Source: Theocolax elegans (taxonomy: Eukaryota > Arthropoda > Insecta > Hymenoptera > Cerocephalidae). Taken from it: a DNA stretch of 64,000 nucleotides. Below are positions 7,192 to 30,829 of this stretch, piece by piece. The number at the start of each line of letters is the position of its first letter. Position 1 is the stretch's first letter. The position numbers were made by a program, and so were the translations under genes. The stretch lies in the NCBI GenBank assembly GCA_026168455.1, contig CM047429.1, positions 32,013,850-32,077,849 on the forward strand. The letters are read 5' to 3'. The notes under the pieces were generated by a model. That model was not told the DNA's origin, ran no database searches, and worked only from the letters and a program-made list of their open reading frames with translations.

Positions 7192-8918
7192 TGTCACGTC
7201 CAGACTTGCACCAATTACCATAAAAAATATTACAAGAAGGCAAATGGTTAATAAACCATTCGCGTTCCTTTCGCTCTTGTTTGACTAGGACTAGCCTTAC
7301 GTCTCCGGGAGTAGCGAGCGAAGTTATTTTGAGAGTAGAGATGCAGGATATAATGTGGGATAAATAAAATAATATATGTTTTATTTCGTATTAATTATGC
7401 ATTATTTATTTAAATATAATATGCTGTTTTTCTTTAAATGAACACGTGAAACTAAATTATTACAGCTTTTTAATGGGCAAAAACACATAAATTTACACTA
7501 TTTTATTAACAATTGTATAAAATTATTTAAGTCGAATAACGATTAATTTTGATTGAATAAACAAGTGTACGGCGAACACATTAACACATTATAGAATAAA
7601 AGATACACAAGGTTTTTTATTATAAACATTAATAATCGAAATAAGAATTATTATAAATAAATGCAGATTTAATTGAAAATTGTTGTCGTTTTAAACATGA
7701 ATTATTGTTAATAAAGTGTATTTCAAACCGCGAATATTGCAAATTAAATGCAATACAACGTATAATTATTATAAATAAATTGTAATATATAATAATAATT
7801 GTTTTAAAAGAAAACGGTTGGTTCAGCAATCGAAATAACATAAAATATCAGGTTGCCTTTACGAATAATACAAGCGTATAGATAGCCGAAAAGAATATAC
7901 CTTAAGTACCCAAATATATAGATATATATATGTATATATATATATATATATGTGTGTATATTTGGTGAGGAACGAAGGTCCGCCTTGAACGTGGGTAGCG
8001 GTGTCAGATTGCCGTATAATGTCCTGCTAGACCTGCGGGCGTCGACGTTAGATGTATATGCTGTTGGAGCTCGACGATTTCCAGATGTCGAAGTCGTAGT
8101 TCCTCGACTATGGCTTGTAGATGTCAATGATACGTCTCGATTCCTCTTGTGATTTTCAATACGTATTACTTAAAAGTTCAAGTAGCAGAGCCACGCCCTT
8201 GGATAAAAATCAAAGAGTTGTCCAGCAGAGCTTCGCCTTGCGAAAGCTTTAGATGAAAATTTAGGAGTGCCTGTGTCTGTTCTGGGTCCTCTTTATATAC
8301 CCTAAAATCTATGCATCTCTCCTTGTCTTACACTTCTTCCTTGTCTTACACTTTGCCTTATATGGAGATGTGTAAGTAGTTCTCGATTTTTCTGTGCTTG
8401 CACCCGATTGGACCGTTAGATGTGCGTAATTAAAAATTATCGAATCCCGTGCATTTTCTGTATCGCTTCGTAGTTAATTCGGAGAATTTGCTGTCCCCTC
8501 TTTTATTACTGCGACATTATCCAGAGAACGGCTTAATTTATTACTTCCTTCTAATGCTCGAATTTTCTAGTCCATGTTTCCCATCGCCGGTTCTTCTCCG
8601 AGCATTGATTTTATAGTGCAGTACAAAAAAAAACTCTTGCGCAACCCTTCATTTCGATCTCACTATCGGTGATCCCGCTTATATGCGTACAGGCTTCGAA
8701 TAATATCTTCAACTCTACTTATCCGTCTCTTTTTCGTTTGAAACACTCGTGAATTAATCGGTCCCTTAGCTCTATAAATTATATTTTATATTACTGCATT
8801 TACTTAGAACTATTCTTTATCAACCTTATTTCGTTTTTCTCCCACGCCGTAATTTTATTCTAAACTACGCAGTACTTTTTACGAAAAATAATAATATAAT
8901 TTTCGTCGGGACGCGACA
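7192..8918 (-). repeat. 3' LTR of giant element B
   Basis: A 1727-bp LTR. In element orientation it begins TGTCGCGTCC and ends GGACGTGACA, a near-perfect terminal inverted repeat. It matches 27715-30438 apart from the MITE in that copy, a (TA)n length change and about three substitutions seen by eye (near 7963, 7973 and 8809), so insertion was recent. A TATA box (TATATAAAG on the minus strand) lies at 8291-8299. A 107-codon ORF (8127-7804, minus) falls within the LTR and looks incidental. The LTR is AT-rich, with a (TA)n tract at 7917-7960. Confidence 0.95.
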
Positions 8919-8937
8919 ACTCCCCCCCTTTTTAAAA
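8919..8937 (-). promoter_or_regulatory. Polypurine tract of element B
   Basis: On the minus strand AAAAAGGGGGGGAGT directly abuts the 3' LTR terminus. This is where plus-strand DNA synthesis would be primed. Confidence 0.88.
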
Positions 8938-9920
8938 ACGACGCCCTCGTCGTTAAACAATATAATTATTATATTATTATTTCTCTTGACATAAGATATC
9001 ATACTTAATTTTAAATTATAAACATTATTTCGATTAATTTTTCTTTATTTCTTATGGTGAACTTTATAAACCATATTACAATTATTTATTTCGTAGTTCA
9101 ACTTCGTTTGTTATTATGTTACATACTTCGAGTACATTATTTCAAACAGTTTAACAGTATTGATATAATTCACCTATACAAATAGATGCGTAATAAAAAG
9201 AGTTTTATTATTACAATTTATTATAGATATTCCGAAAAATTGTATAATTATTATTAAATGTGTTTTCTATAGTTAACAAAAAAAAATTTATTTATCTTTA
9301 GTTTGTACCCTTAATTTTTAGTATACATCAAGTCATGTTAAAAATATCTGTTACTAATATATTTTTTTTTCTCGTAGCCATATTTTTTTTACAAAATTTT
9401 CAATTTTCTTCTATAATATTTGTATGCTTACATATATATTTTCTAAAAAGTCAAAGAAAAGAGTTAGATATTAGTTTCCGTTTTTTTTTACATTTATTCA
9501 ATTAATAAATCTACTATTACGAATTGTTGAAGAGAGAAAAATAAATTTTCTTGTTCTTATACAATATAGGTTCTCCCTTCAATGTGAACAATGTTAGTAT
9601 GTCTTATCTTAATAATATATGTATATGTTTTATTTTATTTTATGAAAGGATTAGGAGTGAAGAAAAATTAATTTTCTTCGCTCCCCCTCCCTCCCTCTGA
9701 AATGTAACGAAAACGTTGAATATATCTATTCAAGGCTTTCGTTATGAGTTTTCCTCTCGGCTATTATAAACAAGGAATCACTTTGACTTATTTATTACTC
9801 TCGAGTACCCCTCCTAGTTCTGTCAATACTAAACGTTTTCGTTGGTCGCTTGAATTTTTTTTTTTTCAAGTAATCTTTTATACCCTAGTAAATTATTTTC
9901 CCTTAGTGCGATAAGGTTTC
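8938..9920. other. AT-rich non-coding stretch of element B next to the 3' LTR
   Basis: No credible ORF is seen. It holds long T and A runs and a short C-rich tract near 9681-9697. It lies just upstream of the antisense gene and may contain its control sequences (inference). Confidence 0.5.
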
Positions 9921-9921
9921 A

Positions 9922-9958
9922 TTTAAATACGGGTGGTTCCTTGCGTTTTTTCGTCAGT
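9922..9958 (+). promoter_or_regulatory. Putative core promoter of the antisense gene
   Basis: TTTAAATA at 9922-9929 is followed by TCAGT at 9954-9958, an arthropod-type initiator roughly 30 bp downstream. The position fits a transcript entering the spliced antisense gene. Not tested. Confidence 0.45.
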
Positions 9959-10017
9959 ATTCGTCAAGCAGTGACTATCTTCGTTTCTCCAAGGTCTCTC
10001 CTCTCTATTTTTACTAA

Positions 10018-10271
10018 GTAAGTGTTTTTATTATTATTATTTTTATTATCATCTCGTTTTGTTGCCTATTATTATTATCTCTTTTTTTTTTTTTTTTACT
10101 AGTTCTAACAAGGAAAAATAGCGTACCCCTTATATAAGAGAATATTTATTTTTTTCCACGCATATTATTTTTTCTTTCAAATAAAAATTTGCTTTTGTCG
10201 TTAAGGTTCTGTTATATATTTCTTTGTGTGTGTTTTATTTTTATTTCTCTAATATATTATTTTTTTTCCAG
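10018..10271 (+). other. Putative 5'-UTR intron of the antisense gene
   Basis: A GTAAGT donor at 10018 and a long T-rich tract ending in CAG at 10269-10271, two bases before the ATG, give a canonical GT-AG intron of about 254 bp. Reading through it yields only a hydrophobic T-rich peptide, which argues against the upstream ATG at 10189. Confidence 0.6.
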
Positions 10272-10272
10272 G

Positions 10273-10767
10273 ATGAATTTTGAAAAGGCACGTCTATTGA
10301 TGCAGTGGGCTATACGCCAACGAAACGATCGGGAATTTAGTCCCGATTTATTTGAAGCTCGGAGCTGGTTTTTAGCCGCTGCTCAGGAGCTAAATGTCTT
10401 ATGTATAAACGAAGGGGTCCCACTGGATGTGGACACCCTGTTGCTGTTACTCAATTTATCTCTACGAGAACTTGCGGCCATATCAGAATTACCTGCGAGC
10501 TCCGAGGCTTCAAATTCATCATTCTCGTCCGAGGAGGAAATGGATCAGGGGGAGTTGGAGGCGATGGAGGTGGAGGAGGAGGAGGAGGAGGAGGTGGAGG
10601 TGGTGGCACTGGAGGAAGATCCGTCGCCGAGGTCGCCCTCGCCAGAGCAGGTGTCTGACGTTCCGGCCTCATTTTACTGGCCATCCGACCGGGGAGGATC
10701 TCCCTGCTATTCTCCAGTGCCGCGAATGATAGAAATTATAGATATATCATCCGAGGATGAATTGTGA
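10273..10767 (+). CDS. Antisense acidic protein of element B
   Basis: A 164-codon gene on the strand opposite to gag-pol, just inside the 3' LTR. The start is taken at 10273, after the splice acceptor, rather than the upstream in-frame ATG at 10189. The N-terminal 80 residues look helical and Leu-rich (MNFEKARLLMQWAIR onward). A Ser-rich stretch, a run of Glu/Val and proline-directed serines (DPSPRSPSPE) follow. The C terminus is IEIIDI followed by SSEDEL, a textbook SUMO-interacting motif pattern of hydrophobic core plus acidic tail. The gene has its own TATA/initiator-like promoter, a 5'-UTR intron and AATAAA downstream. A nuclear regulator is the likely role, by position comparable to the HBZ gene of HTLV-1 (analogy only; no homology is claimed). 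No known family is recognised. Confidence 0.7.
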   Translation: MNFEKARLLMQWAIRQRNDREFSPDLFEARSWFLAAAQELNVLCINEGVPLDVDTLLLLLNLSLRELAAISELPASSEASNSSFSSEEEMDQGELEAMEVEEEEEEEVEVVALEEDPSPRSPSPEQVSDVPASFYWPSDRGGSPCYSPVPRMIEIIDISSEDEL

Positions 10768-10855
10768 CAAGATGACCAGATTTGTACTGTTTTTGTTTCT
10801 CTTGTATTGTTTTTCTTTTGTTATTTTTCTTTTATTGCTAAAAAAAAAGTAACAG

Positions 10856-10861
10856 AATAAA
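10856..10861 (+). terminator. Polyadenylation signal AATAAA of the antisense gene
   Basis: AATAAA lies about 90 bp after the stop codon, following a T-rich 3' UTR. It would end the antisense transcript before it meets the convergent BIR-RING gene. Confidence 0.6.
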
Positions 10862-10938
10862 CGTGATTATAAACTCATAATAGAGTATTTTATTTTTCCG
10901 TGTTTTCATTCCTTTCCTCATTCCGATTATACGTCGCT

Positions 10939-10940
10939 CC

Positions 10941-11010
<70 letters not shown>
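10939..11010 (+). repeat. (GA)n microsatellite in element B
   Basis: An almost pure GA run of about 70 bp with one interruption. Predicted peptides through it are low-complexity shadows. Confidence 0.95.
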
Positions 11011-11692
11011 GCTGGAAGGGCTACTATTCTATTCGATGTGTGCACACTAGGGTGCGCGTGCACCGAGCTGGCGGGGGAAGCAGGCCCAATATGGCCGCTT
11101 CTGAGCAACGAGCGACGTATCGCTTCCATAGAATCGAGCGCTGCGGTGCGAGAGAGCGCCGATGCCCGAAAGGGCTTGCACTCAGCGTATGGGTTTTCCC
11201 CAACGCAAAGAGTAGGCACGCGTCTGGAGAGAGAGGGGACGCCAGGAGGGGCGTCCGTTCCACTCTACGCATGATGCTCTCGAACTCGAGGAAAGCTACA
11301 ACTTAAAGCAACGGGAGAGAGAGAAACAGAATCAAGTGTCAAATGCGCATAGCTAAGGCGTGTTTGACACGTACAAGCAACGGCGAATCGAAGATGCAGA
11401 TCTACAGCGTTTTTTATTATTGATGGTGCTTAAACTAAAGGATAGGAATAATTCGCAGATGTACCGTGGATTATTTATATACAAAAATACTGAAATATTA
11501 TTTTTAACATTGTTATGTTTGTTGTTATTTACAGTTTATAATTGTTTTATACCTTATTATTTTTTCTTATTTATTTTTACAATTACAATTAAACAATATT
11601 ACTTAACACAATTTAATAAACAAAAATGTAAGAAATACTAAGATATGGAAGAAGTTTGTATCATTCACAACGTTTCTTGAGAAGTAGAGAGA

Positions 11693-11782
<90 letters not shown>

Positions 11783-12440: not shown

Positions 12441-12444
12441 TAAT

Positions 12445-13434
12445 TTAGGCGAATTCTATCTCGGTGAAGCGACCTCTTCTTTTTGTTACTAAATATATGT
12501 TTAACCATTCCGTTATTTCTCTTTTACAAATCATGCATTCCTTTGTTCCCATATAACAAGTTAAACAGCTTAAAGCATGTTTACATGGGAGATATATTCC
12601 CTCTATTGGATTACGTTTGCAAATCTTGCATTTAAGATCTTTTGATAAATTGGCATGTTCCGAACCTTTTATTATTTTGCTCAATTTTTCCATGTCGTAG
12701 ATTCCACAACAGTCTTCTGCTCGTTCTTTTTTTGTAATGTATTCACATTTTGGCGACCATTTACGATGTTCTTGCATAGGCTCGTCCGTTTTTTCCCATT
12801 TTCGTATTCCTACACCGCATATATAGCATTTTACTTTGTCGTTCTCTCCTGTATAATAAAATCCGGCTTCTGCTAGGTCCTCGGTTGAAATAAAAGCATG
12901 CGGCCAATATTTAAAGGTATCTAATCGATTTTTCTTTATTGACAGATTTACTCCGCAATCAGTTTCATCGAAGTCCTGTTGTAGGTCCATAATTATTTCT
13001 TTTACTTTCTCTTCTGTATCATTATAAACTACCTCGTCTAGTTGAGTTTCTAAGGACGCTAATATCTCTAATATTTCTGGTAACTCTTCTTGTGTTATCA
13101 TTGACACGGGGGTATTATTTTCTTCGTCCAGCATTGAGGGAAAAATATCACTGGTCGCGCTTTGTAATAATTCCATAACTTCTTGTTCATTCAGAAAGGA
13201 TTCCAATTCCGGCCAGCTTACTTCCTTAGCGTTTTGTGATTCTGCGATATCTTCTGATTTTTTGTCTTTATGTATTTCCATAGGTTCCGTTTGCGTCATT
13301 TTTGAACTTGAAGTTCCCATTTCCTCTGGTTTTTCAATATCATGTTTCGTTTTTAACAACAAAAATGGGCGCTTCGTGTTGTATTGGTTCCAACGGAATA
13401 ATTTGCTGGTTATCTCTCTGTAATTCGAATTCAT
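12445..13434 (-). CDS. BIR-RING inhibitor of apoptosis protein carried by element B
   Basis: A 329-codon protein with one BIR domain at about residues 168-235 and a C-terminal RING at about 267-310. The BIR has the full zinc pattern C-x2-C-x16-H-x6-C within the typical context (LAEAGFYYTG, then WE, then EHRKWSP). The RING reads CKIC, an 11-residue gap, C-K-H, then CLTC and CMIC, the C3HC4 form of IAP proteins. IAPs bind caspases or their activators and ubiquitylate partners, blocking cell death; insect and baculovirus IAPs share this layout. The first 160 residues are acidic and not recognised. All ligands are present and the frame is intact. It is the last sense-strand gene before the 3' LTR. 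The start at 13434 is the first ATG; a CAG a few codons inside (GAATTACAG) could be a splice acceptor, so a later start is possible. Confidence 0.92.
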   Translation of the reverse strand: MNSNYREITSKLFRWNQYNTKRPFLLLKTKHDIEKPEEMGTSSSKMTQTEPMEIHKDKKSEDIAESQNAKEVSWPELESFLNEQEVMELLQSATSDIFPSMLDEENNTPVSMITQEELPEILEILASLETQLDEVVYNDTEEKVKEIIMDLQQDFDETDCGVNLSIKKNRLDTFKYWPHAFISTEDLAEAGFYYTGENDKVKCYICGVGIRKWEKTDEPMQEHRKWSPKCEYITKKERAEDCCGIYDMEKLSKIIKGSEHANLSKDLKCKICKRNPIEGIYLPCKHALSCLTCYMGTKECMICKREITEWLNIYLVTKRRGRFTEIEFA

Positions 13435-13479
13435 TTTTTATAGTAACAATCTCGATTTCTCTTTCTTTGTTTCGTTCTA

Positions 13480-13794
13480 TTATTGCCCTAATTCGAGTGG
13501 ATATTTTATTATCATTTTTTTTATTTTTTGCTCCTCGATATTTTTTTTACAGTTATAACATTTTTGCCTCTCGGAATTTATATTTATGTCTCTAAATTTA
13601 ATGTGTTGTATAATCGGCTTTCCTGCCTTTGTTTCTATGCAATTTCCACATAAAGGAGTGTTCAAGTCTATGCTGTAAAACATCCTTTTAAGGTAATACA
13701 TTTCGTGTATTTTTCTATTGGTTTGTTTTTTTCTAATCGTACCGTCGTAAGAGGGTAAATTTTTCCTTTCTTTAACTTCTTGTATAATCCTCAT
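13480..13794 (-). CDS. Small CxxC protein of element B (104 aa)
   Basis: A short ATG-started frame between the glycoprotein and the BIR-RING gene. It is basic, with two cysteine pairs, CGNC in the middle and CYNC near residue 80, that could bind one zinc ion. No family is recognised. A T-rich tract ending ACACTCAAAATAG lies about 12 nt before the ATG and might be a weak splice acceptor. Its place between two clear genes on the same strand supports it, but it could be a remnant. Confidence 0.45.
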   Translation of the reverse strand: MRIIQEVKERKNLPSYDGTIRKKQTNRKIHEMYYLKRMFYSIDLNTPLCGNCIETKAGKPIIQHIKFRDININSERQKCYNCKKNIEEQKIKKMIIKYPLELGQ

Positions 13795-13849: not shown

Positions 13850-15835
13850 TTACATTGAATTTGCTCTGTTCTCATTGTTTATTTTTAAAATTGGATATAA
13901 ACACGATTCTCTCTCTAAAATTTTTGTATCTATAGTTTTAAACTCGGAAGTGATAAATTGGCTCTTTTCATTTTTCTCTATCTCAACCTCCATTTTTTTG
14001 TTCTCCTTATTGTCTTTATTTAACTTTTGCGTTCCCAAATAAAGTAATAGTTGTGTGATTGAATTCCATATTGCCCCAATTAAATGTAAAGAGAACCCGT
14101 AAATTCCGTGCAGCATGAAACCATGCATAATCGTATCGATAATTAGCTTGATGAGACGACATATCATAAAAAATCCTATGACACCGGCAGAGATGTTACT
14201 GAACGTTAAAAATTCCGACCATAGTTTGTTGAATGTCGATTCAGCCAGGTTATTTAAGGCTTCTTGGTCGAACAAATTTCCTATAGTAATTCCTTTGGGG
14301 TTTATCTTCCTTCCCGAAGCTCCTAATGCCATCTTATTTAATACCGTAGATTTTTCTAATGGGAATAATATCATATCGCGAAGTTTACTGGTATCCTTTT
14401 GTCCGTATATTCCACTAGTAGCGAGTGTCTCGGGTGAAACATATCTCCATGTTAGTTTTGTTTGAGGCGTCAATATCTCGGGATCTTTTACTTCGACTGG
14501 ATTCGGTAGCATTTTAAACCAAATTTGATGCATTTTGAACATAACTGGTAGACGATTATCACACATTAGGGGTTTCCCAGTTCTTACTAATATACGCGTT
14601 CTAGGTGTGAGAAAATATGGTTCGTTGTCCCGAAACACGGGTAGCTGTTCGTAACACCCCGTCGTTTCCCTCCCGACTACTTCTACTTTTAAGCATTTTA
14701 GTAGATGAATAACTTCTCCCGCTGTTACGGCTAGATACCCTGGTTGATTCATGATACGATAGCCCACTTCCGCCGGGGAAACTGAGGCGAGCGCGAGGGC
14801 TTGAGTGAGAATATGTCTTTCGATTTCGCACCTTTGTTTTAATATATCGTAATACATTCTATTTAGCTGTCGGCGTACATATTTTTCAACGTATAAGAAT
14901 TTTGAGTTTATGTATGCAAATATATCAAGATTGTTTCCCTCAATTGCTTTTTTGCTTATAAAACTGTTAACCTTGGCGTCCTCAATTATGAAAAGCTTGG
15001 GATGTTCGGTGCGCGCAAACCTAAAGCCGCATACATTCTGTTCTCCTTTTTTCCATAGTGCGAATGTAATATCATTAGTTTCAAGCGAGTACATTATACG
15101 GTTTTCTTGCTCTTCATATATTTTATCCAAATTTCCTTCATACAACACCGACTATTTGTTAACTCCGCATGAATCCTCCGGAAGCGCTTCCCAAAAAACT
15201 TGTGAGGCATCAATATCTGTACATTCTAAATCCGCGAGTGTGCATGTAACTCCAGAGTCTAGTCTTACTTTATTATATTCCAGATGTACAGCCGCATAGT
15301 AATCGTATATTGTTATTTCAACATGACCTGCGACATAGGCGTCTTTATAGGTACCGTATGAATCCGAAAATGAACCTCCAATACAATTTCCGTTATTATC
15401 GTTCCCTCCCGCGAACACGATTGGCTTATTAGTGGTACTGTTTCTGGGTAGATTTATAATTTGAGTGCCGCTTATAGAAATGTAACCCGAACGATGGATT
15501 CCATAACATTCCTCTCTACTTATTTCTTTGTAATAACTAATTTCTCCGTTTAGGACGCGAGATGCATGTCCGTGCATACCGCAATGTGTAACTGTACGTG
15601 TGATTTTTATTATGCATTTATATACATGCGTGGTACTGTAATCGTTCAATTGTAGTAACTGCGCGTAAACTTTTGTTACATTAATATATGGTTCATGTAT
15701 ATCACATTCTTTAACATCCACTAATGATATTGTTGTTAGATTTGAAAGTTGTTCCCCGCAGTCATATCCGTAAAGTCCCGATGAATAATTAATTACACTC
15801 ACGAGTGAAAGCAGAAGGAATGATCTCTTTGCCAT
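13850..15835 (-). pseudogene. Chuvirus-like glycoprotein of element B, interrupted by one TAG
   Basis: The ATG at 15835 opens a 227-codon frame that ends at TAG (15152-15154); the same frame then continues for 433 codons to 13850. Total span is about 660 codons, near the usual size of chuvirus glycoproteins. The N terminus has a signal peptide (FLLLSLVSV), followed by many paired cysteines and NxS/T sites. The second part has a pattern I associate with chuvirus-type, gB-like class III glycoproteins (AGEVIHLLKC, ETTGCYEQLPV, FLTPRTRIL), then hydrophobic segments near the C terminus (IGFFMICRLIKLIID) and a charged tail. It would be a membrane fusion protein. A splice acceptor (CTTATTTACAG) directly abuts the ATG. 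The single stop is unlikely to be a standard readthrough context, so this copy is probably broken there. The family call is from pattern recall. Confidence 0.8.
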
Positions 15836-17586: not shown

Positions 17587-18111
17587 TTTTTTGTTCTGAA
17601 AAAGTAAAAGAGATATCGATAAATCTTTCCGCTCCTTGCCCTGTCTCTCTTTTTTTTTTTATATATATATGGATCCTTCTGGTTTATTGAGCGCTCTGCT
17701 TTTAATATCTTGTTTGCGTACGTATTATTTTTTTTTATATGTGCCGGTTCTAGATGTGTCTATTTTGTAATTTAAACCGAAATCAATGATTCATGATTAT
17801 ATAGGGTACACTATAAATTAAACTAAAAATATGAGTAAACTATGTATGTATTTTCTTTTTTTTTTTTATTGTTGTACAATTGCCTAGGGCAGTGTGGTTA
17901 GGACAAAGGTTAGTCAGAAGGTGTCGTTCTTCTCTTAAGGTATAGGCTTACGAACTCAGAATCCTCTTCTTATTTTGATTTTATTTTATTTTATTTCTTT
18001 TTGATTTGATACATAGGCAGGAGAAGAAAAAAAAAAATTTTATTTAACATTCTTGTATTTATCTTATCGTTATAGTTTTTCCGATCTTCCTTCGTCCCTG
18101 TCCCTTTTTCA
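17587..18111. other. Spacer of element B between env and the 236-aa gene
   Basis: AT-rich with several T/A runs. I see no gene. Its env-proximal end holds the polypyrimidine tract and CAG acceptor at 17596-17610 (minus strand). Confidence 0.5.
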
Positions 18112-19517: not shown

Positions 19518-19686
19518 GTCCGTTGAATCTAGTATAGATTTTTTTGTGTTTCTAGTATGCCAAACTCTCCTAATTTATTTATACCTGGGGGTCCTGTAAG
19601 AAGGTATGACTAATTAACAGAATTACTAGAGTCAAGGTAAGTTCAGTTGTAATTATTTATATAGGTTTACATTTTGAACGGTATGT

Positions 19687-20140: not shown

Positions 20141-20697
20141 AGGTTTTAGGTTTAGTGATGTGTTAGACTCCAATGATTCTATTTTATTGTAAATCATTTT
20201 TTTTTATATATATAACAATTAAATTTAAATTTGACTAAGTTCAACTGACATTGAAAATTTAAACCTTTTTCTTACTTTCCTTTGTACATTAACATCATTG
20301 TTATCTTAGGCGAGAAGAGTAAAGAGAAAAAGACCTTTTTTCTTTGTTATTTGCTTTATTCGTTTCTAGTTTAATAATCGCGTATTTATTTAATTTAAGT
20401 GAGTGTATGCTTTTCTTGTAATGATCTTTCCGTATAATAAAAAAATATTATTTCCTTGTAGTTTATTTTCGTCGTTATTTAGATATATACATATTATTTT
20501 TATATCGTTTTTTTTTGTATAAAGTCAGATAAATTGAAATAATTTTATTTTAAGTTGAATGTATGCCAATTGTGATTACAAGATAATAAATATTATTCTA
20601 TTGACAAATTTTAGAACTGTAAAATATACATATAAGTGCGTATACATATTTTCAAGCACATTGGGGCTATTATATATTATATACCTATGTTTAGGCA
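20141..20697. other. Non-coding stretch of element B after pol
   Basis: AT-rich and without recognisable genes; it separates the Pol stop from the tandem array. Confidence 0.5.
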
Positions 20698-23600
20698 CTA
20701 CAAAGGTTCCATATATGAATATCTTAACCTATTAACATGCACTATTTTCGTTTTATTATGAGCTAGCTCTATTTTTACATTTCCCTTGTTATTAACTATT
20801 TCTAAAATCCGATGTGGTCCAGTATATTGATCGCCTAGTTTGTATTTCTTCCCTCCTTTTAATAACCAGACATTATCCCCTGTCTGAAATTCTTGATGAT
20901 TGGCTTTCCTGTCGTAATAGAATTTTGACCTATCTTTAGAAGCTATTAATTTTTCTCGCGCGATTCCCTGTATTTCGTTTAAACGTTGTCGTAAATTTAT
21001 AATGTAATCATCATACGTTGGAACTCGTTCTCGTGGGTCTAAAGGTTCGTTTGATGGTAGTCGCGCTTTTCTTGCAAAAACAATTTCAAAAGGCGTGTAG
21101 AGATGACCCTCATGTACCGACGTATTATATGAAAACGCGGCTAATTCGCATAACTCATCCCATGAGTCATTTCTTTCTATCATTGTTTTTAAATAATCTG
21201 CTAAACTGCTATGAAAACGCTCAACGGAGTTGGACTGAGGATGATAAGCCGCGGTTTTAACTTGTTTAATCTTAAAAATTTTCGCTACTTCTCTCATCAG
21301 ACTACTTAAAAATGAGGTACCTTGGTCGGAGATAATTAACAACGGGGCGCTAAAAATTGAAAAGTGTCGACGGACTAACGCTTCGGCGATCGTGGCCGCG
21401 GTCGCGTCTGGTATGGGTATCGCCATACAGTATTTTGAAAGGTTACATTGAATGGTTAATATATTATTGTTATTATTTCGAGATCTGGGAAATGGTCCCA
21501 CAAGATCGACCGATATGGATTCCATAGCCGAGTACGGAGTATTTGTTATTATCATACGTTGTTTAGTTTTAACACGAACCAATTTTTTTAGTTGGCAAGT
21601 TAAACAATGTCTAATGTAGTTTTGTACGTCTTTCTTAATATCTGGCCAATAAAAACGTTGTTTTATACGTTTATAGGTTTTTGTTACCCCTTTATGTCCT
21701 GCACAAGCAGACTCGTGCATTTCGCGAATAATATTTTCCCTATTACTCTCTTCCACACATTTTATGAATCCTAAACAAATAATTATTTTTACATTAATTT
21801 TTCGTAGAGTTATACTTATTTGTTTCAATATTTCGTTCCATGAAACGTTTTCAATAAATTCGCTCTTTGCGATACTTATTGAACGTAATTTTTCTTTTAA
21901 TATAATATTTTTTAAATTTAATAGATTCGTTTTTAGATTATTAATAATTTCTGAAGTACTCAGTCGCTCTTCGTCACGTAACACCATAGCAAAATGCATT
22001 TTTCCGTTTTTGTTATTGATTCTTATTTCTCCTGGATTTAAATTGGAAAAATGAGGTAGTAATAATTTGGAAGCCAAATTTCTGGATCCTTCATCTAAAG
22101 GCATTCCAGTCGTAGTTATGAAATAAACGTAATTATCTTTTCTCATAAAGAGTTGTTCTTTAACTTCAATGAATTTCTTTTCATCATTTGGTACTTCGTA
22201 AACATCCTTTTCTTCCCAGGACTCGTCAAATTTGTTGTTAAAATTATCTATCTCCATGGGTTGTAATCTTTTGTCTGAGTTGACTATCGTTTCAATTTCC
22301 TCGGGGGCTTCTTGTATTATAGGAAGGTTTTTGACTGGTTCTTTTGATATATTTGACTTGTTGGGTCGTTTAGCTCTCTTTTCGTTGTAGTTTGGCCGTG
22401 TTATTTTTCCTGCACGACTGCGTGTTTCCATAGAATGATTTTTAATAACATAAACGGGTTCTTCTATTGGATTTCTTGATAATGCGTCAGCATTAACGTT
22501 ACTTTTACCGGCTTTGTATACGATGTCAAAGTCGTATGCATTCAGTTTTATTCTCCATCTACTAACTCTAGATGTCGGATCTACTGAGTTTTTAAACCAA
22601 ACAAGTGGTTTATGATCTGTTATAATGAGGAAACGACGGCCTCTTAGATAGCAATCGAACTGAGTAACGGCATACAGTATGGCTAATGCTTCCCTTGAAT
22701 AAGTATCATATTTTTGCTCGGCTTTGTTTAATACTCGTGAAACATAAGCAACTGGTAGGTCGGTTCCCACCTCTCCTTGTGATAATATTGCTCCTATTGC
22801 TGTACCGCTAGCGTCACAAGTCACTATAAATGGTTTGTTAAAATCTGCGATTTGTAGTAATGGTTGCTTACACAATTTTTCTCTTAAATCATCGAATGCC
22901 TTTTGAACCTCGCTGGACCATAGGAAAGGTGCGTCTTTCTTTAATAAATTACTTAATGGTCTAGCTATATCCGAAAAATTCGCAATGAATCGTCTATAAT
23001 AACCTGCTAATCCTAAAAATTGACGTATGTTTTTCACTGTTTTTGGAATTGGAAATTTTTTTACTGCTTCTAATTTTTTTGGTTCCGGCAAAACACCTTC
23101 TGGTGATAGTACGTGTCCCAGATACACTACTTCTCTCTTCAAAAATTCACATTTGTCTGGCTGTAATTTCAGATTTGCGGCGCGTACTCTTTGCAAAAAT
23201 TTTTCAAACTTTTGGTTATGCTCCTGAATATTTTTAGCGTATATAACTGCGTCGTCAAGGAATAAAAATATTTCTTTGCCTTGCATGCCTTCGAAAACAC
23301 GATCAATCATTCTTTGAAAAGTGGCTGGAGAATTGCATAATCCCATAGGCATTGTTTTAAATTGAAATAAACCGAATGAAGATGCGAAAGCTGTTTTGTG
23401 TCGATCTTCTTGTGCTAACGGAACTTGTAAAAATCCTTGACATAAATCCAAGACGGTGAATACACGATTTTCTGGTCCGATTTGATCGATAATATCTAGT
23501 ATATTAGGTAATGGGTATCGATCCTTTACGGTTTTATCGTTTAATTGTCGAAAATCGACAACTAGTCGGTATCGTTTATTACCTTGACTATCAGGCTTTT

Positions 23601-25368
23601 TTGTTACTAGAAAAACAGGTGATGTATAATTGGAACTTGATGGTTCAATTATGTCTCCTTCAATCATTTCTTTTAATTGTTTATCAAGTTCGCTTTTGAG
23701 AGCATGAGGAAATCTATATGGCTTAGCTGTGATTGGTATGTCGTCGACAGTCGGTATCTTATGTTCTATAGCATTTGTCACGCCTAATTTTTCTCCTTTT
23801 AGACAGAAACAATCCGAATATTTATCAATTAAATTTTCTATAGATTGTCTTTGTTCCTTGTCCATTTTATCAAAATGCAAGGCTTCTTTTAACCGTTCAT
23901 TACGATTAAGTGTACTCGTATCCTCCGTTATGTTAAGTATCCTTGCTTCAGATCGATTGTCAGAAATGTCGTGTATGTCGACCTCTTCACTTTCATAACT
24001 ATAAAAATTATTAATATAAGGTTTATTTGAATAAACCAAATAACTGTTATTCATTTCGTTTTCGTGTATGGCTTCGACAAATTCGCTTCGTAAATTTTCG
24101 TTTATAACTCGTTCATTCAATAAAAAATCGCTAGGGTCCTCATATTGTTCATTTTCGTCTTGTATGTTTATTAAATTCTCATTATTTATCTCATTTTCAG
24201 TTTCTTCAGTTCCTTGTTTGTTTATCCATAATATTTCGGTTCTCGGGATAGTATCTAACTCTTCCCCCGACATAACCAATTCTTTGTTATCCAATTTACA
24301 AACATAACTAACATTTTTATCACGAGGTCCGCATTTATCGCCCTCCTCGATTTCGTAATCTATTCGTACTGGACAATTCATCTTTTTATCAACAAAATCT
24401 TCCTTATTTTCACGAGGTCCGCATTTATCGCCCTCCTCGATTTCATAATCCATTTGTACTCGACAATTCATCTTTTTATCAACAAAATTTTCCTTATTTT
24501 CACGAGGTCCGCATTTATTGCCCTCCTCGATTTCATAAACCATTTGTACTCGACAATTATTAACTGTCTTATTCAATAAATTTTCTTCATTTTTTATTTC
24601 ATTTTCAATATCATACTTCAGGTCAACTTCGTTTTCATAATTAGTACAGGATGGACTCTCAGCCATCCTATCGAACAATGGTGCTTCAATAATACCATAA
24701 TTTTCAGTAATTTCATCAAATTTTTCTTTAATACGTAGCTCAGTCACATCACATACCCGTGGCTGCGCTTTTCCATTATTTATTTGTAATCGTTCTTCCT
24801 TCATTAATCCATAACAATTTTCACTTGCTTTACATGTATTATTCCTTAGATCCGACTCCTCGTCGATAAACGTTTCATCATTTTTGTGATATTGAAAATC
24901 ACTTGACGTTTCTGAGTCACTATCGGTATAATTATAAAATCTTGAATTTTTCATGTTCGTATAACCATTGTTTTCCCTTGGTTTTGGCATATATCGTATT
25001 GATTTTCGGTCATAATTTTCGATATTCTCAATTATATATATCGATTCATCCGTTTGCATATTATTTGCATTTTCAAAGGGGAGAATTAATCCGTTAAATT
25101 CTAAATATTGTTCCAAATAATTGATTTTTGCATCGTTTCTACGGAAAAAATCGGTGCCTAAGATTCCGTCTTGTTGTATAGGGAACGAATCATGTACTAA
25201 ATTAAGTTCCACGGGAGATCCTTCGAAATCTACTCTGATTTTACCACGAGTAGTTAATGAGTGGTCAGTTATGCCTTTTAACAATATAATATCATTTTCG
25301 TCAATTTTTACGCGAGAGTCTACCTCTGACTCTTTAATTAGACTTACCGATGCTCCTGTATCTAGCAA
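20698..25368 (-). CDS. pol: Pol polyprotein of element B
   Basis: A 1556-codon frame with protease (LDTGAS at its start), reverse transcriptase from about residue 536 with FLDD near 702 (YLDD variant), RNase H from about 849 (TCDASGTAIGAIL), integrase zinc finger near 1218-1255 (HESACAGHKG to CLTC) and integrase core with Asp near 1287, DQG near 1344 and Glu near 1380. It ends in HVNRLRYSY, as many gypsy integrases do. There is no ATG at the start; the frame is -1 to gag and is open back past the gag stop, where GCGAAAATAA offers an A-run for slippage. Residues about 100-500 are an unusually long acidic spacer between protease and RT, with a 30-residue repeat in about 2.7 copies. No internal stop is seen. 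Confidence 0.95.
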   Translation of the reverse strand: MLDTGASVSLIKESEVDSRVKIDENDIILLKGITDHSLTTRGKIRVDFEGSPVELNLVHDSFPIQQDGILGTDFFRRNDAKINYLEQYLEFNGLILPFENANNMQTDESIYIIENIENYDRKSIRYMPKPRENNGYTNMKNSRFYNYTDSDSETSSDFQYHKNDETFIDEESDLRNNTCKASENCYGLMKEERLQINNGKAQPRVCDVTELRIKEKFDEITENYGIIEAPLFDRMAESPSCTNYENEVDLKYDIENEIKNEENLLNKTVNNCRVQMVYEIEEGNKCGPRENKENFVDKKMNCRVQMDYEIEEGDKCGPRENKEDFVDKKMNCPVRIDYEIEEGDKCGPRDKNVSYVCKLDNKELVMSGEELDTIPRTEILWINKQGTEETENEINNENLINIQDENEQYEDPSDFLLNERVINENLRSEFVEAIHENEMNNSYLVYSNKPYINNFYSYESEEVDIHDISDNRSEARILNITEDTSTLNRNERLKEALHFDKMDKEQRQSIENLIDKYSDCFCLKGEKLGVTNAIEHKIPTVDDIPITAKPYRFPHALKSELDKQLKEMIEGDIIEPSSSNYTSPVFLVTKKPDSQGNKRYRLVVDFRQLNDKTVKDRYPLPNILDIIDQIGPENRVFTVLDLCQGFLQVPLAQEDRHKTAFASSFGLFQFKTMPMGLCNSPATFQRMIDRVFEGMQGKEIFLFLDDAVIYAKNIQEHNQKFEKFLQRVRAANLKLQPDKCEFLKREVVYLGHVLSPEGVLPEPKKLEAVKKFPIPKTVKNIRQFLGLAGYYRRFIANFSDIARPLSNLLKKDAPFLWSSEVQKAFDDLREKLCKQPLLQIADFNKPFIVTCDASGTAIGAILSQGEVGTDLPVAYVSRVLNKAEQKYDTYSREALAILYAVTQFDCYLRGRRFLIITDHKPLVWFKNSVDPTSRVSRWRIKLNAYDFDIVYKAGKSNVNADALSRNPIEEPVYVIKNHSMETRSRAGKITRPNYNEKRAKRPNKSNISKEPVKNLPIIQEAPEEIETIVNSDKRLQPMEIDNFNNKFDESWEEKDVYEVPNDEKKFIEVKEQLFMRKDNYVYFITTTGMPLDEGSRNLASKLLLPHFSNLNPGEIRINNKNGKMHFAMVLRDEERLSTSEIINNLKTNLLNLKNIILKEKLRSISIAKSEFIENVSWNEILKQISITLRKINVKIIICLGFIKCVEESNRENIIREMHESACAGHKGVTKTYKRIKQRFYWPDIKKDVQNYIRHCLTCQLKKLVRVKTKQRMIITNTPYSAMESISVDLVGPFPRSRNNNNNILTIQCNLSKYCMAIPIPDATAATIAEALVRRHFSIFSAPLLIISDQGTSFLSSLMREVAKIFKIKQVKTAAYHPQSNSVERFHSSLADYLKTMIERNDSWDELCELAAFSYNTSVHEGHLYTPFEIVFARKARLPSNEPLDPRERVPTYDDYIINLRQRLNEIQGIAREKLIASKDRSKFYYDRKANHQEFQTGDNVWLLKGGKKYKLGDQYTGPHRILEIVNNKGNVKIELAHNKTKIVHVNRLRYSYMEPL
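24321..24565 (-). repeat. 90-bp coding repeat in the pol spacer
   Basis: Copies start at 24321, 24411 and 24501 (the last partial). Each encodes about 30 residues including DYEIEEGDKCGPR and DKKMNC. The period is a multiple of three, so the frame is kept. Confidence 0.9.
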
Positions 25369-25439
25369 GAATTTTAACGGACGTCTTAACTGACCGATAT
25401 CGAAGATTACGACCGGGGCTGAACTCTGTTGGCTTAAAT

Positions 25440-27614
25440 TTATTTTCGCGGTGCGGAGGGGACGTTTGAGCGGGTTTCCGCGCTCGAAGTATAGGGAATT
25501 TGATTCGTAGCCTCTCTCTCGACCCTCCTCGGAGAGAGAGTGTCGGTGTTTCCCTGATTTTGATTTCCTTCTCTTATCTCTCTTTGTAACTTATAACAAT
25601 CGCGCTTTATGTGACCGGGTTTTCCGCAATGAAAACAAGTAACTGGTGATCTTATATTATTATTCGATTCGTTATTAATATATCGTGATTCTTGGGAAGT
25701 TGGATTAACCGGCTCGCGCACACCGCGAGTCCCGGAATTATTTCCCCGATCTTCTTTGTTAAATTGCTGCGACGAGTATTTATTATTATTATAACGAACA
25801 AAGGAATCATTTTTATCTCTGTCTCTATTTGGTAAAAATTCCGTCTGATTTTGATACTCATTCCAACCACCAAATTGTAAATTTGGTCTATTATAATTAC
25901 GACTGTTATCCGAGCGATTTTGTGGACTATATGAACTGTTTATGGGATTGCGTCGGTTGTTATTATCGGAAAATCTTTCCGCAAAACTTCGTGCTAATTT
26001 GAAACAATTTATGGCTCCATGACCAGTCTTAGAACAATATTGACATACGATCGGAGAGTTATTAGAAATATAGTTTACTTTACGCGTTTCTCGAGTTGAA
26101 CGAAAACGAGTCTCTTCTCGGCTCGGCGTCTCCTCGTCCAAGACGCTACAAGCGAACTCGCGCTCCACCTCGAGCGCCTGTTCGCGAGCTTGTTTTATAG
26201 AACTTGGAGTCCCTAAACGCGCACGAATTTCCCAACGAAGCCCTTTTAAAAAGAATTTTAAACAATCTCGCCTTAGTTCAAGCATGAAATGATCTGCTAT
26301 CGCGACTCGTCCCTCTCTGTCGGCCGCTTTGACTATTTCATTTTTTATTTCTTGTAACCGATTAAAATAAGCAACGACTGTCTCATTGTTTTTCTGTTTT
26401 AATTTAGCAAGTTCTCCCGTCCACTCGTAATATGTTTTTATCGATCCGAAGGTATTTTCGAAAAAATCGGATATCTCTTTGATAGAATTAAAATTTTCTC
26501 CGCGCGCACAAGTTAAAGCTTCCCCATATAAACGCATTCGAATAAGTTTTGTTAATTCTTTTTCGTACTCCGACGGTAAAATTTCTTTTGCTTCGTTGCA
26601 TCCGTCCAAAAATTGCGATAAATTTATATTATGACCGTTAAATCGCGGTATTAAATCTAGAGCGTCCTTTAGCGATAAACCTCGAATTTGAGACGTCATT
26701 GTTTTATTGTTAATTTGTTTTTTAACTTCACTCCTATCTAGTTTTTTTTGTTTTGTTCCGGTGCTTGTTCTTAATTCGTCTAAATTAATTTTATTAAATA
26801 ATTCGTCTTTAATCTTAGAAGAGTTTGCTTGTTCGGGCGATTTTTTAATTAATTGATTATCGAAGGGAATTGTAAAATCTGTCGCGCCTTGAATTAGTTT
26901 TTCGTCGAGTACTTTCGCCGTGTCTGTCACTAGTGCCTTTGCTTCCTCAGTCTCTTTTTCGATCGGTGCGGAAAAAATATTTAACGCGCCTTTAATCTTA
27001 TTTATGATACCTTGAAAAGTTGTCCCTTTTTTTACACTTTCTTGTAAACTTTCTATGATTTTAGGTTCCTCGAGATAAGAATCTAACAACTCTTTTTTTA
27101 CTTCAGTCGCGAGCCGTTTTCTTACCGAGCTTATAACGTTATCCGGTGTTAAAATCAATGGTTCATATGGACGATAAATTGGGGCTGGCGTACTAAAATT
27201 TACAGGATTATTCGCGATAAGTTCTTTTTGTTCCTCGTAATTCAAAACTGCGGGTTTTAAACTAAAATGTTTTACACGCGTGGGAGTAATTATTGTGTCT
27301 TCCTGTTCGTCTTCACTAACTTCGGAAATAGAAAGATCAGTTGGAAAAAAAGGGTCTCTATATTCAAAATCGCGAGGTATTTTTATAGATAATGAAATAT
27401 TTGCTGCACTTTTTTCTATTCTATCCTTTAAATAATTTATTTCTTTTGTCAAATTTTGCACTGTTTCCCTAGGAGTTTTAGTTAAATCGAGAGTATCGAG
27501 AGTCTGAACTTTTTCTTTGTATAAATTTAATAACGTATCATTCATAGAAAATTCTAAACTCGTGTTTCTTTGTTTATTTACATAACAATCAGTATTTTTA
27601 GGCGAACCTGACAT
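25440..27614 (-). CDS. gag: Gag of element B
   Basis: About 724 codons from the ATG at 27614; the open frame extends five codons upstream but begins with GTG. A long charged N-terminal region is followed by a capsid-type domain at roughly residues 310-490 (LIPRFNGHNINLSQFLDGC onward, then YFNRLQEIKNEI). Two CCHC zinc knuckles follow, CQYCSKTGHGAINC and CFHCGKPGHIKRDC, separated by an Asn/Arg-rich linker of about 120 residues. It would form the particle and bind the RNA. The stop overlaps the upstream reach of pol by a few tens of bases, in a -1 relation. Confidence 0.92.
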   Translation of the reverse strand: MSGSPKNTDCYVNKQRNTSLEFSMNDTLLNLYKEKVQTLDTLDLTKTPRETVQNLTKEINYLKDRIEKSAANISLSIKIPRDFEYRDPFFPTDLSISEVSEDEQEDTIITPTRVKHFSLKPAVLNYEEQKELIANNPVNFSTPAPIYRPYEPLILTPDNVISSVRKRLATEVKKELLDSYLEEPKIIESLQESVKKGTTFQGIINKIKGALNIFSAPIEKETEEAKALVTDTAKVLDEKLIQGATDFTIPFDNQLIKKSPEQANSSKIKDELFNKINLDELRTSTGTKQKKLDRSEVKKQINNKTMTSQIRGLSLKDALDLIPRFNGHNINLSQFLDGCNEAKEILPSEYEKELTKLIRMRLYGEALTCARGENFNSIKEISDFFENTFGSIKTYYEWTGELAKLKQKNNETVVAYFNRLQEIKNEIVKAADREGRVAIADHFMLELRRDCLKFFLKGLRWEIRARLGTPSSIKQAREQALEVEREFACSVLDEETPSREETRFRSTRETRKVNYISNNSPIVCQYCSKTGHGAINCFKLARSFAERFSDNNNRRNPINSSYSPQNRSDNSRNYNRPNLQFGGWNEYQNQTEFLPNRDRDKNDSFVRYNNNKYSSQQFNKEDRGNNSGTRGVREPVNPTSQESRYINNESNNNIRSPVTCFHCGKPGHIKRDCYKLQREIREGNQNQGNTDTLSPRRVEREATNQIPYTSSAETRSNVPSAPRK

Positions 27615-27670
27615 TTTATATCTAAACACATTATTCCTTTAATCTCTTTTTTTCTCTCAAAAATGTGAGT

Positions 27671-27688
27671 TTCCCGGTCGATGCACCA
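27671..27688 (-). promoter_or_regulatory. Primer binding site of element B (tRNA-Gly type)
   Basis: The minus strand reads TGGTGCATCGACCGGGAA, complementary to the 3' end of insect tRNA-Gly(GCC) with one G:U-type mismatch. It starts 26 nt inside the LTR end, farther than usual. Confidence 0.75.
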
Positions 27689-28464
27689 AATTTATTATAA
27701 TAATTAATACAATCTGTCACGTCCAGACTTGCACCAATTACCATAAAAAATATTACAAGAAGGCAAATGGTTAATAAACCATTCGCGTTCCTTTCGCTCT
27801 TGTTTGACTAGGACTAGCCTTACGTCTCCGGGAGTAGCGAGCGAAGTTATTTTGAGAGTAGAGATGCAGGATATAATGTGGGATAAATAAAATAATATAT
27901 GTTTTATTTCGTATTAATTATGCATTATTTATTTAAATATAATATGCTGTTTTTCTTTAAATGAACACGTGAAACTAAATTATTACAGCTTTTTAATGGG
28001 CAAAAACACATAAATTTACACTATTTTATTAACAATTGTATAAAATTATTTAAGTCGAATAACGATTAATTTTGATTGAATAAACAAGTGTACGGCGAAC
28101 ACATTAACACATTATAGAATAAAAGATACACAAGGTTTTTTATTATAAACATTAATAATCGAAATAAGAATTATTATAAATAAATGCAGATTTAATTGAA
28201 AATTGTTGTCGTTTTAAACATGAATTATTGTTAATAAAGTGTATTTCAAACCGCGAATATTGCAAATTAAATGCAATACAACGTATAATTATTATAAATA
28301 AATTGTAATATATAATAATAATTGTTTTAAAAGAAAACGGTTGGTTCAGCAATCGAAATAACATAAAATATCAGGTTGCCTTTACGAATAATACAAGCGT
28401 ATAGATAGCCGAAAAGAATATACCTTAAGTACCCAAATATATAGATATATATATGTATATATAT

Positions 28465-29459
28465 GGGGTATTCCACGTGAAGTGGTCCGATCAAAATTTT
28501 AAAATGCACCAAATTTTGGGTACACTTTGCAAATGTTTTTCAGAATACAGAAAAAAATTTTTAGGTACTGGAATCTATTTGCTCAAAAGTTATTCTAACC
28601 TCAAAAACTGAATTTTTCCATATTTTTTTCAACACCAGCTGGGTTTACCGCTATATAACTCAAAATCTATCAACTTTTACTATAGAACATTATATGTAAC
28701 ATTCGTTGCTAATTATATCTAGAATTTATTCTTCTGGGTTAGAATTTCTAATCTCAAGGTCAATGTTACATAAACTACATGTCAATATTCAACTTAAAAA
28801 AAGTGCAAGTGCGCCACAATTGATTTTTTTATCCAAAAGTCTAAAAGAAAGCTTGGAGCAATACCTATCAAATGGTCTGTAGCATTTTCATGGCCTTCAA
28901 TTCTGTAAAAAGTTATGATAATTTAAAGAAAGACAAAAAATTCACAAAAATTAACATGGTAATTCCCATTTAAATTTTTAAAAAAATTTCGTGTTTCTTT
29001 AAATTGTCATAACTTTTTACAGAATTGGAGGCCATAAAAATGCTACAGACCATTTGAAAGGTATTGCTCCAAGCTTTCTTTTGGATTTTTGGATGAAAAA
29101 ATCAAAGGTGGCGCACTTGTACTTTTTTCAAGTTGAATATTGACATGTAGTTTATGTAACATTGCCTTGAGATTAGAAATTCTAACCCAGAAGAATAAAT
29201 TCTAGATATAATTAGCAACGAATGTTACATATAATGTTCTATAGTAAAAGTTGATAGATTTTGAGTTATATAGCGGTAAACCCAGCTGGTGTTGAAAAAA
29301 ATATGGAAAAATTCAGTTTTTGAGGTTAGAATAACTTTTGAGCAAATAGATTCCAGTACCTAAAAATTTTTTTCTGTATTCTGAAAAACATTTGCAAAGT
29401 GTACCCTAAATTTGGTGCATTTTAAAATTTTGATCGGACCACTTCACGTGGAATACCCC
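28465..29459. mobile_element. Foldback MITE in the 5' LTR of element B
   Basis: A 995-bp element made of two nearly identical inverted arms of about 480 bp with ends GGGGTATTCCACGTGAAGTG, flanked by TA-rich sequence consistent with a TA target. It is absent from the other LTR, so it arrived after element B integrated. No transposase is encoded. Confidence 0.93.
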
Positions 29460-29810
29460 ATATATATATATGTGTGTATATTCGGTGAGGAAGGAAGGTC
29501 CGCCTTGAACGTGGGTAGCGGTGTCAGATTGCCGTATAATGTCCTGCTAGACCTGCGGGCGTCGACGTTAGATGTATATGCTGTTGGAGCTCGACGATTT
29601 CCAGATGTCGAAGTCGTAGTTCCTCGACTATGGCTTGTAGATGTCAATGATACGTCTCGATTCCTCTTGTGATTTTCAATACGTATTACTTAAAAGTTCA
29701 AGTAGCAGAGCCACGCCCTTGGATAAAAATCAAAGAGTTGTCCAGCAGAGCTTCGCCTTGCGAAAGCTTTAGATGAAAATTTAGGAGTGCCTGTGTCTGT
29801 TCTGGGTCCT

Positions 29811-29819
29811 CTTTATATA
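29811..29819 (-). promoter_or_regulatory. TATA box of the element B 5' LTR promoter
   Basis: TATATAAAG on the minus strand in a GC-richer context (GGG before, AGGACCC after). It predicts a start around 29785 and a U3 of about 650 bp. Confidence 0.65.
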
Positions 29820-30829
29820 CCCTAAAATCTATGCATCTCTCCTTGTCTTACACTTCTTCCTTGTCTTACACTTTGCCTTATATGGAGATGTGTAAGTAGT
29901 TCTCGATTTTTCTGTGCTTGCACCCGATTGGACCGTTAGATGTGCGTAATTAAAAATTATCGAATCCCGTGCATTTTCTGTATCGCTTCGTAGTTAATTC
30001 GGAGAATTTGCTGTCCCCTCTTTTATTACTGCGACATTATCCAGAGAACGGCTTAATTTATTACTTCCTTCTAATGCTCGAATTTTCTAGTCCATGTTTC
30101 CCATCGCCGGTTCTTCTCCGAGCATTGATTTTATAGTGCAGTACAAAAAAAAACTCTTGCGCAACCCTTCATTTCGATCTCACTATCGGTGATCCCGCTT
30201 ATATGCGTACAGGCTTCGAATAATATCTTCAACTCTACTTATCCGTCTCTTTTTCGTTTGAAACACTCGTGAATTAATCGGTCCCTTAGCTCTATAAATT
30301 ATATTTTATATTACTGCATTTACTTAGAATTATTCTTTATCAACCTTATTTCGTTTTTCTCCCACGCCGTAATTTTATTCTAAACTACGCAGTACTTTTT
30401 ACGAAAAATAATAATATAATTTTCGTCGGGACGCGACAATTGTTAGTGTTTATTAGTTAGAACACTTAGTCTAAACACCTGTTATATTGTAATTTAAGAG
30501 ACTTGGTATTCTCGCTGGTAATAATTAATGGGGAATAAAAAACAAAAAAAAATTACAATGTGACTGAACAATAAATAATTTCCTAACTAAATATTAGAAA
30601 AAAAAATTGCATAGTAAAATATACTAAAATATACCCACTGTATATTGTAGTTCCTTTGCCCTAAATTCGATTATTTTATCGGAAAATTATCTATGAGTTT
30701 ATTGAACAATTTCCTTGCGAAATTCTTGAATCCAACTGAAAACAAAAATTTAACTCGAGTCCTATGCTGGTTAAATTGAATGTAGCCTAAATAAAACTCG
30801 ATATCTTCCTTCAAACCTATAAATTTTTC

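Follow-up and report, generated by a model that had tools for sequence, protein, structure and literature searches.

A damaged Ty3/gypsy retroelement with two envelope-type genes, an IAP gene and a predicted antisense gene in Theocolax elegans

Introduction

Does a gypsy-type retroelement that carries two unrelated envelope-type genes, an anti-apoptotic gene and a gene on its opposite strand represent a lineage, or an accident of one insertion? The question is raised by a 23.2-kb element in a 64,000-nucleotide stretch of the Theocolax elegans (Hymenoptera) genome (GenBank assembly GCA_026168455.1, contig CM047429.1, positions 32,013,850 to 32,077,849), here called the window, whose coordinates are used below. 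Known insect retroelements use one envelope, and in the cases known to us long terminal repeat (LTR) retroelements gained their envelopes singly. The same ordered gene set recurs across the genome, and we consider it likely that the window holds a damaged copy of a retrovirus-like Ty3/gypsy (Metaviridae) family that exists in long, cargo-bearing and short, envelope-less forms and is expressed along the lines proposed below.

Organisation of the element

The element occupies positions 7192–30438 on the minus strand and would measure about 22.2 kb without an insert in its 5′ LTR. Its boundaries are marked by the following features.

7188–7191 and 30439–30442, no strand: ATTG target-site duplication (TSD) flanking both ends of the element
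7192–8918, minus strand: 3′ LTR with TG..CA ends (sequence comparison)
8919–8938, minus strand: polypurine tract directly abutting the 3′ LTR (sequence)
27670–27688, minus strand: candidate primer-binding site TGGTGCATCGACCGGGAAA, beginning with TGG, 26 nt past the 5′ LTR
27715–30438, minus strand: 5′ LTR including the insert (sequence comparison)
28465–29459, no strand: insert of 995 bp resembling a miniature inverted-repeat transposable element, with inverted-repeat ends, within a TA repeat of the 5′ LTR

With the insert excluded, 3 mismatches separate the two LTRs over about 1,730 aligned bases, so that the insertion is probably young. Sequence related to the insert also lies beside other LTRs of the genome (L038, L040 and, as a short piece, L047).

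The gag and pol genes are both open.

25440–27629, minus strand: gag, with two CCHC motifs (zinc knuckle above, Retrotrans_gag below the Pfam cut-off)
20698–25590, minus strand: pol, stop to stop, with protease, reverse transcriptase (RT), RNase H and integrase (Pfam and PDB)
25548–25554, minus strand: GGGAAAC slippery heptamer in the right phase for −1 frameshifting (overlap scan)

The pol frame is −1 relative to gag, and GGGAAAC is the sole XXXYYYZ-type heptamer within their 151-nt overlap. RT, RNase H and the integrase zinc domain also scored above the Pfam cut-off, and the protease and the integrase core (rve) below it. When the RT region was compared with the PDB, the best match was the Ty3 RT (1.7e-77), the next group was another enzymatic polyprotein (4.9e-50) and retroviral enzymes came behind Ty3; no relative of pol was found among viral contigs. 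The order protease–RT–RNase H–integrase, an RT nearest to that of Ty3, LTRs with TG..CA ends and a TSD of 4 bp, within the 4–6 bp of the group, assign the element by its sequence to Ty3/gypsy as a group; it is not filed as an errantivirus. Troyka, an LTR retroelement with CG..CG ends and 3-bp TSDs (PMC12440569), is excluded by the ends and the TSD found here.

Between the end of pol (20698) and the 3′ LTR lie 11.8 kb of cargo, in which a 73-bp array, ORF110, ORF236 (ORF, open reading frame), an F-type Env, a chuvirus-type glycoprotein (GP) and an IAP follow one another 3′ from pol, with the antisense gene opposite.

19613–20196, minus strand: 73-bp tandem array, in short and long copies, 3′ of pol
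19242–19574, minus strand: ORF110, with sub-cut-off matches only, to coiled-coil-type families
18112–18822, minus strand: ORF236, with two CxxC motifs and no family
17596–17597, minus strand: AG of the interior's top-scoring splice-acceptor-like site, 9 nt upstream of the Env ATG
16723–17586, minus strand: F-type Env, N-terminal piece by position, with no Pfam match of its own
15906–16775, minus strand: F-type Env, C-terminal piece, stop to stop (Baculo_F, PF12259, E 5.7e-15)
15152–15835, minus strand: chuvirus-type fusion glycoprotein, N-terminal piece (PF24664, E 2.7e-66)
13850–15148, minus strand: chuvirus-type fusion glycoprotein, C-terminal piece (PF24664, E 4.9e-144)
13480–13794, minus strand: detached N-terminal part of the IAP frame, which is broken in this copy
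12445–13434, minus strand: IAP with BIR (PF00653) and RING (zf-C3HC4_3) (Pfam)

The C-terminal Env piece reached 55.4 bits against Baculo_F (cut-off 24.1), which identifies it as an Env of the kind found in errantiviruses and insect endogenous retroviruses (iERVs). GP belongs to the family Monjiviricetes_fusion (PF24664), its two pieces being divided by an in-frame stop, and the IAP combines the BIR zinc motif (1.5e-24) with a RING (6.9e-10), as expected of its family. In a set of 5.8 billion proteins, none of 193 candidates for ORF236 and none of 725 for the C-terminal part of Env reached E ≤ 0.01, and the single relative of the IAP (914 candidates) was a XIAP-like fish protein. Neither ORF236 nor the C-terminal piece of GP had a PDB match worth naming, and no relative of the IAP or of either GP piece was found among viral contigs. 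Eleven strong splice-acceptor-like sites occur in the 18.8-kb interior; the one before Env is the strongest, and others stand 19 nt upstream of the ORF110 frame and 174 nt upstream of the GP ATG. The copy number of the 73-bp array differs between copies (window, L018, L023 and L025), and in L025 the array and an ORF110 remnant occur twice. Two long GA microsatellites (10939–11010 and 11690–11780), each followed by a GC-rich stretch, lie in the 3′ non-coding part.

On the opposite strand, a TATA box and an initiator-like motif, a 5′ leader with splice signals, an ORF of 164 aa and a poly(A) signal together outline a predicted gene.

9922–10861, plus strand: predicted antisense transcription unit (promoter, splice and poly(A) signals)
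9922, 9954, 10018, 10270–10271 and 10856, plus strand: TATA, initiator-like TCAGT, splice donor, acceptor AG and poly(A) signal, respectively
10273–10767, plus strand: antisense ORF, 164 aa, acidic (23% D/E)

We take TCAGT to be an arthropod-type initiator and the motif IEIIDI close to the C-terminus of the protein to be SUMO-interaction-like. The signal motifs recur in a second LTR-bounded copy (c9, below). A Myc_N match of the protein lay below the Pfam cut-off and covered the acidic stretch, and was discarded.

The initial annotation of this DNA had described a gypsy-type element with a complex-retrovirus gene set. Its matched LTRs, ATTG duplication, polypurine tract, gag and pol and some 11.8 kb beyond pol are all present at the positions given. 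The primer site it mentioned corresponds to the TGG-starting candidate, which may be of tRNA-Gly type. Its six or more further ORFs are there, but partly as fragments (two of Env, two of GP, and the IAP with its detached N-terminal part). The resemblance to complex retroviruses lies in organisation alone, because no cargo protein matched a retroviral accessory gene (no such Pfam match for ORF236 at E ≤ 1, or for ORF110 or the antisense protein at E ≤ 10).

Cargo order, intact frames and selection

The assembly from which the window was taken (657,985,991 bp) was searched for further copies, and for most searches the genomic counts are lower bounds. The C-terminal piece of GP had at least 102 matches, of which 84, at 76 loci, belong to the studied family and 18, at 45% identity, to a second one. 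The complete order ORF236–Env–GP–IAP, with the antisense ORF opposite, was found within 15 kb at at least 39 of the 76 listed GP loci. Gene by gene over the same distance, Env lay upstream on the same strand at 65 of these loci, IAP downstream at 66, ORF236 upstream at at least 51 and the antisense ORF downstream on the opposite strand at 55; the values 51 and 39 are minima because 46 of the 153 ORF236 matches were left out of the locus scoring. Each of four wrong-orientation controls gave 0 of 76.

Unbroken versions of GP, IAP and Env occur in other copies of the same genome. A GP frame of 690 aa is stop-free in 8 full-length matches of 102 listed, an Env frame of 578–633 aa in 18 of 142, and an IAP frame of 449 aa, longer than that of the window, in 19 of 136. 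The 251-aa frame of ORF236 is stop-free in 28 of 153 listed matches and all 164 codons of the antisense ORF in 43 of 125, the window being included in both counts. Many of the remaining matches contain stops or cover only part of the query. The division of Env into two genes by a conserved split, such as a programmed shift, is ruled out by the 18 matches with a single open frame.

Substitutions were compared as non-synonymous (dN) and synonymous (dS) divergence. Most differences between the antisense, Env and GP pieces of the window and those of other copies are silent. For the antisense ORF, comparison of the window with eight diverged copies gave a dS of 0.47–0.65, a dN of 0.06–0.11 and a dN/dS of 0.13–0.18; dN/dS was 0.17–0.31 for the C-terminal part of Env (window against five copies) and 0.23–0.31 for that of GP (window against two). 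The antisense gene that the initial annotation had proposed is thus supported by its signals, by its 43 stop-free full-length matches and by its low dN/dS. At a locus at C5:26.2 Mb, dS relative to the window was 0.07 for Env and 0.54 for the antisense ORF. This difference, together with the identities of the short copies described below, suggests that parts of the element have different histories, and template switching between co-packaged RNAs is likely to be behind the mosaicism.

Two fusogens in two families

F-type Env is a class I fusogen and chuvirus-type GP a class III fusogen. Both also occur in the second family, of which one copy was read (L055, C1:50850060-50858217, 50.85 Mb). In this copy pol is followed by a GP frame of 708 aa (PF24664, 9.4e-217), two small ORFs, one of them possibly gag-like, and an F-type Env in two overlapping frames, the second of which matches Baculo_F (2.5e-10). 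Relative to the window, identity is 45.5% over 848 aa of pol, 42% in GP and 30% in the C-terminal part of Env. The similar divergence of pol and GP agrees with a single double-envelope ancestor of both families; two separate captures may be the other origin. An IAP was present within 5 kb at none of the 18 listed GP loci of the second family. Many of these 18 loci have equal scores, so that the second family was probably recently active. At a third locus (L071), a stretch resembling ORF236 (44%) precedes Env-like pieces, each of these parts being interrupted; going by this arrangement, ORF236 and Env may travel together more widely.

Whether two fusogens work in one element can be doubted on the ground that known insect retroelements make do with one envelope. 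In one study (PMC12992720), the F-type Env of insect ERVs is described as the third ORF. The long form would then be real but would have a single working fusogen, with the other one, and perhaps the IAP, as passengers, and the Env of L055 is, like that of the window, in two frames. On the other hand, both fusogens had a dN/dS below 0.35 against the window copy, several whole frames exist for each, and the two recur in the second family. We regard a single working fusogen as unlikely, though well worth keeping in mind.

Long and short forms

The relation of cargo to LTRs was followed with an LTR probe, which had at least 40 near-identical matches (40 of 1,482 candidates were scored): the two of the window, nine further same-strand pairs and 20 others. 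Perfect 4-bp TSDs, each with its own sequence, flank eight of the nine other paired copies, and the 5′ end of the ninth was outside the compared stretch. The LTRs of a pair differ by 2–7 bases in seven of the eight pairs measured and by 27 of 1,726 in c9, with large gaps in three of the eight. This c9 (C1:39.99 Mb) is the only one of the nine that carries cargo, in the same order and with 98.4–99.9% identity by piece, between LTRs with a 4-bp TSD of its own; a short stretch is missing at its Env break, and Env is broken there too. The other eight are short forms with no cargo, a status that for c6 and c8 rests on several separate comparisons. These eight are 97.9–99.1% identical to the window in gag and 97.9–99.0% in a piece of RT, 70–75% in ORF110 and 82–95% in the region before the 3′ LTR, and the ORF110 homologue was decayed in those examined. 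Among the 20 unpaired LTR matches, gag came next in 7 and not in 13; probing 12.4 kb downstream in six of the seven revealed cargo in three, an LTR in two and a stretch of the post-IAP region in one.

These copies also bear on the view of the cargo as an independent mobile or viral island, for instance a cluster of endogenised virus genes, which spreads by itself and only sometimes lies within gypsy LTRs. LTR and gag were read together with cargo at only five loci (the window, c9 and three more), and 34 of 100 listed IAP loci have no GP of the studied family within 5 kb. Yet at all five loci the cargo stands 3′ of gag-pol, the second family has GP directly after pol, and a decayed ORF110 and the post-IAP region persist in the short copies, as would be left if a long ancestor had lost its middle. 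An independent island appears improbable on this evidence. It is still less probable, indeed very doubtful, that the genes were domesticated or captured by the host and multiplied for its own use, with the LTRs as mere vehicles. Such a use, as an antiviral decoy, is proposed for solo chuvirus glycoproteins of mosquitoes in PMC7642597, and the IAP family occurs in host genomes too; however, TSD-flanked insertions, near-identical LTRs and many copies with stops suit a selfish element better. A one-off chimera, in which unrelated genes landed in a single gypsy copy, would fit the eight cargo-free pairs and the sharp fall of similarity at ORF110, but is scarcely credible given the ordered cargo at at least 39 of 76 listed loci and the LTR-bounded c9 with its own TSD, and is rejected unless those loci arose by segmental duplication of a single insertion.

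The suggestion of the initial annotation that this is an undescribed lineage of large, cargo-carrying retroelements is supported by the same two results. Copies that share the gene order but differ in their flanks, which it had named as the supporting observation, exist in the wasp's own genome; copies with LTR, gag and pol but no cargo, which it had named as the contrary one, exist as well, but the cargo form is itself multi-copy.

Several observations weigh against the reading of the element as a copy of a functional, double-enveloped family. The window copy has broken frames for Env, GP and IAP alike, so that it is not itself functional, and its Env pieces both lack the furin motif R-x-[KR]-R. 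No strong splice acceptor lies within 250 nt upstream of the start of ORF236 or of the IAP (N-terminal part). Among the listed matches, 10 of the 76 GP loci are without IAP and 11 without Env. Both LTRs were read in only two long copies, the window and c9, the other three being represented by 5′ LTR and gag, and the pol of c9 lacks its end. Finally, every one of the low dN/dS ratios includes the branch leading to the window, and these comparisons are not independent of one another; between other copies the ratio is higher (antisense 0.18–0.88, Env 0.34–0.89, GP 0.60), as would be expected from decay after insertion.

In its surroundings, the element is one of several retroelements. A separate gypsy element (within 841–7075) adjoins the left TSD, with gag at 4574–7075 and pol at 841–4455, both open, and the RT region of its pol is 37.5% identical to that of the studied element. 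More retroelement pieces lie at 37000–51500, among them a DUF7041 match (38480–39859) and an RT (45612–46235).

Proposed expression and comparison with known systems

For expression, particles and gene roles we propose a model built on what the DNA itself contains: LTRs, gag-pol, a −1 slippery site, an ordered cargo, multi-copy spread and coding constraint. The LTR would drive the genomic RNA, and Gag-Pol would be made by −1 frameshifting. ORF110, ORF236, Env, GP and IAP would be expressed from spliced sense RNAs, and an internal promoter on the opposite strand would yield a spliced mRNA encoding an acidic regulator whose tail is SUMO-interaction-like. The particles could carry two unrelated fusogens, F-type Env and chuvirus-type GP, for different target cells or conditions, and the IAP would protect infected cells from dying. 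Spread of the short forms would occur in trans, and their gag-pol and LTRs would be swapped with those of long forms by template switching.

In the open-access literature, with preprints and subscription papers mostly outside it, no description was found of a Ty3/gypsy element that combines an IAP and an antisense gene with the two fusogens. Among the closest known systems are the insect errantiviruses, such as gypsy and ZAM, and the iERVs, which share with the element a Ty3-type pol, a −1 gag/pol overlap, a 4-bp TSD and, after pol, a Baculo_F Env whose ATG is preceded by a splice-acceptor-like site. In contrast, the studied element extends to 23.2 kb, adds a second, unrelated fusogen, an IAP, ORF236, ORF110 and the antisense gene, and has no furin motif in the Env pieces of the window. 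Group I alphabaculoviruses combine an F-type protein, the class III fusogen GP64 and IAPs, a similar set; they are, however, large DNA viruses, GP64 is of a different family and no common descent is implied. Complex retroviruses such as human T-cell leukaemia virus type 1, with its HBZ, likewise have several accessory genes and, close to the 3′ LTR, a regulator-like gene in antisense orientation. No homology was found, and the antisense promoter of the studied element lies internally and has a TATA and an initiator-like motif of its own.

Anakin of mosquitoes joins a chuvirus GP to a BEL/Pao element (PMC7642597); like it, the studied element is an LTR retroelement with a glycoprotein of this type (here PF24664), but its pol is of Ty3 type and it has an F-type Env, an IAP and an antisense gene in addition. 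Such glycoproteins were present in 19 of 19 ant genomes and were interpreted as endogenous viral elements (EVEs) of an unknown virus clade (PMC6540820). Those of Jingchuvirales type in Hymenoptera were adjoined by Gypsy fragments, no clear Gypsy capture being reported (PMC10084718). The glycoprotein found here is of the same kind and likewise in many copies; it lies inside LTRs together with gag-pol, whereas the published reading is one of virus-derived EVEs (PMC6540820, PMC10084718). In shrimp, repeats hold an IAP along with genes like those of white spot syndrome virus (PMC3124438).

Implications

The studied element provides a case of capture of a chuvirus-type GP by Gypsy, which was reported as not clearly seen in PMC10084718. 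Two unrelated fusogens stand together in two diverged families of one genome (one copy of the second having been read), and the studied family adds an IAP and a constrained antisense gene, a gene set beyond the usual for gypsy-type retroelements. More tentatively, and somewhat short of an even chance, these families may belong to an arthropod, probably insect, lineage of Ty3/gypsy retroviruses that was ancestrally double-enveloped (F-type and chuvirus-type), is equipped with an anti-apoptotic gene and a strongly selected antisense regulator and is still mobile beside envelope-less satellites; under the same tentative reading, the ‘Mono-Chu glycoprotein’ EVEs of 19 ant genomes, as reported in PMC6540820, would largely be envelope genes of such retroelements and not RNA-virus fossils. 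The finding makes it possible to ask in testable form why an element has two entry proteins, how it handles cell death and silencing, and what share of the chuvirus-type glycoprotein copies of arthropods are retroelement genes.

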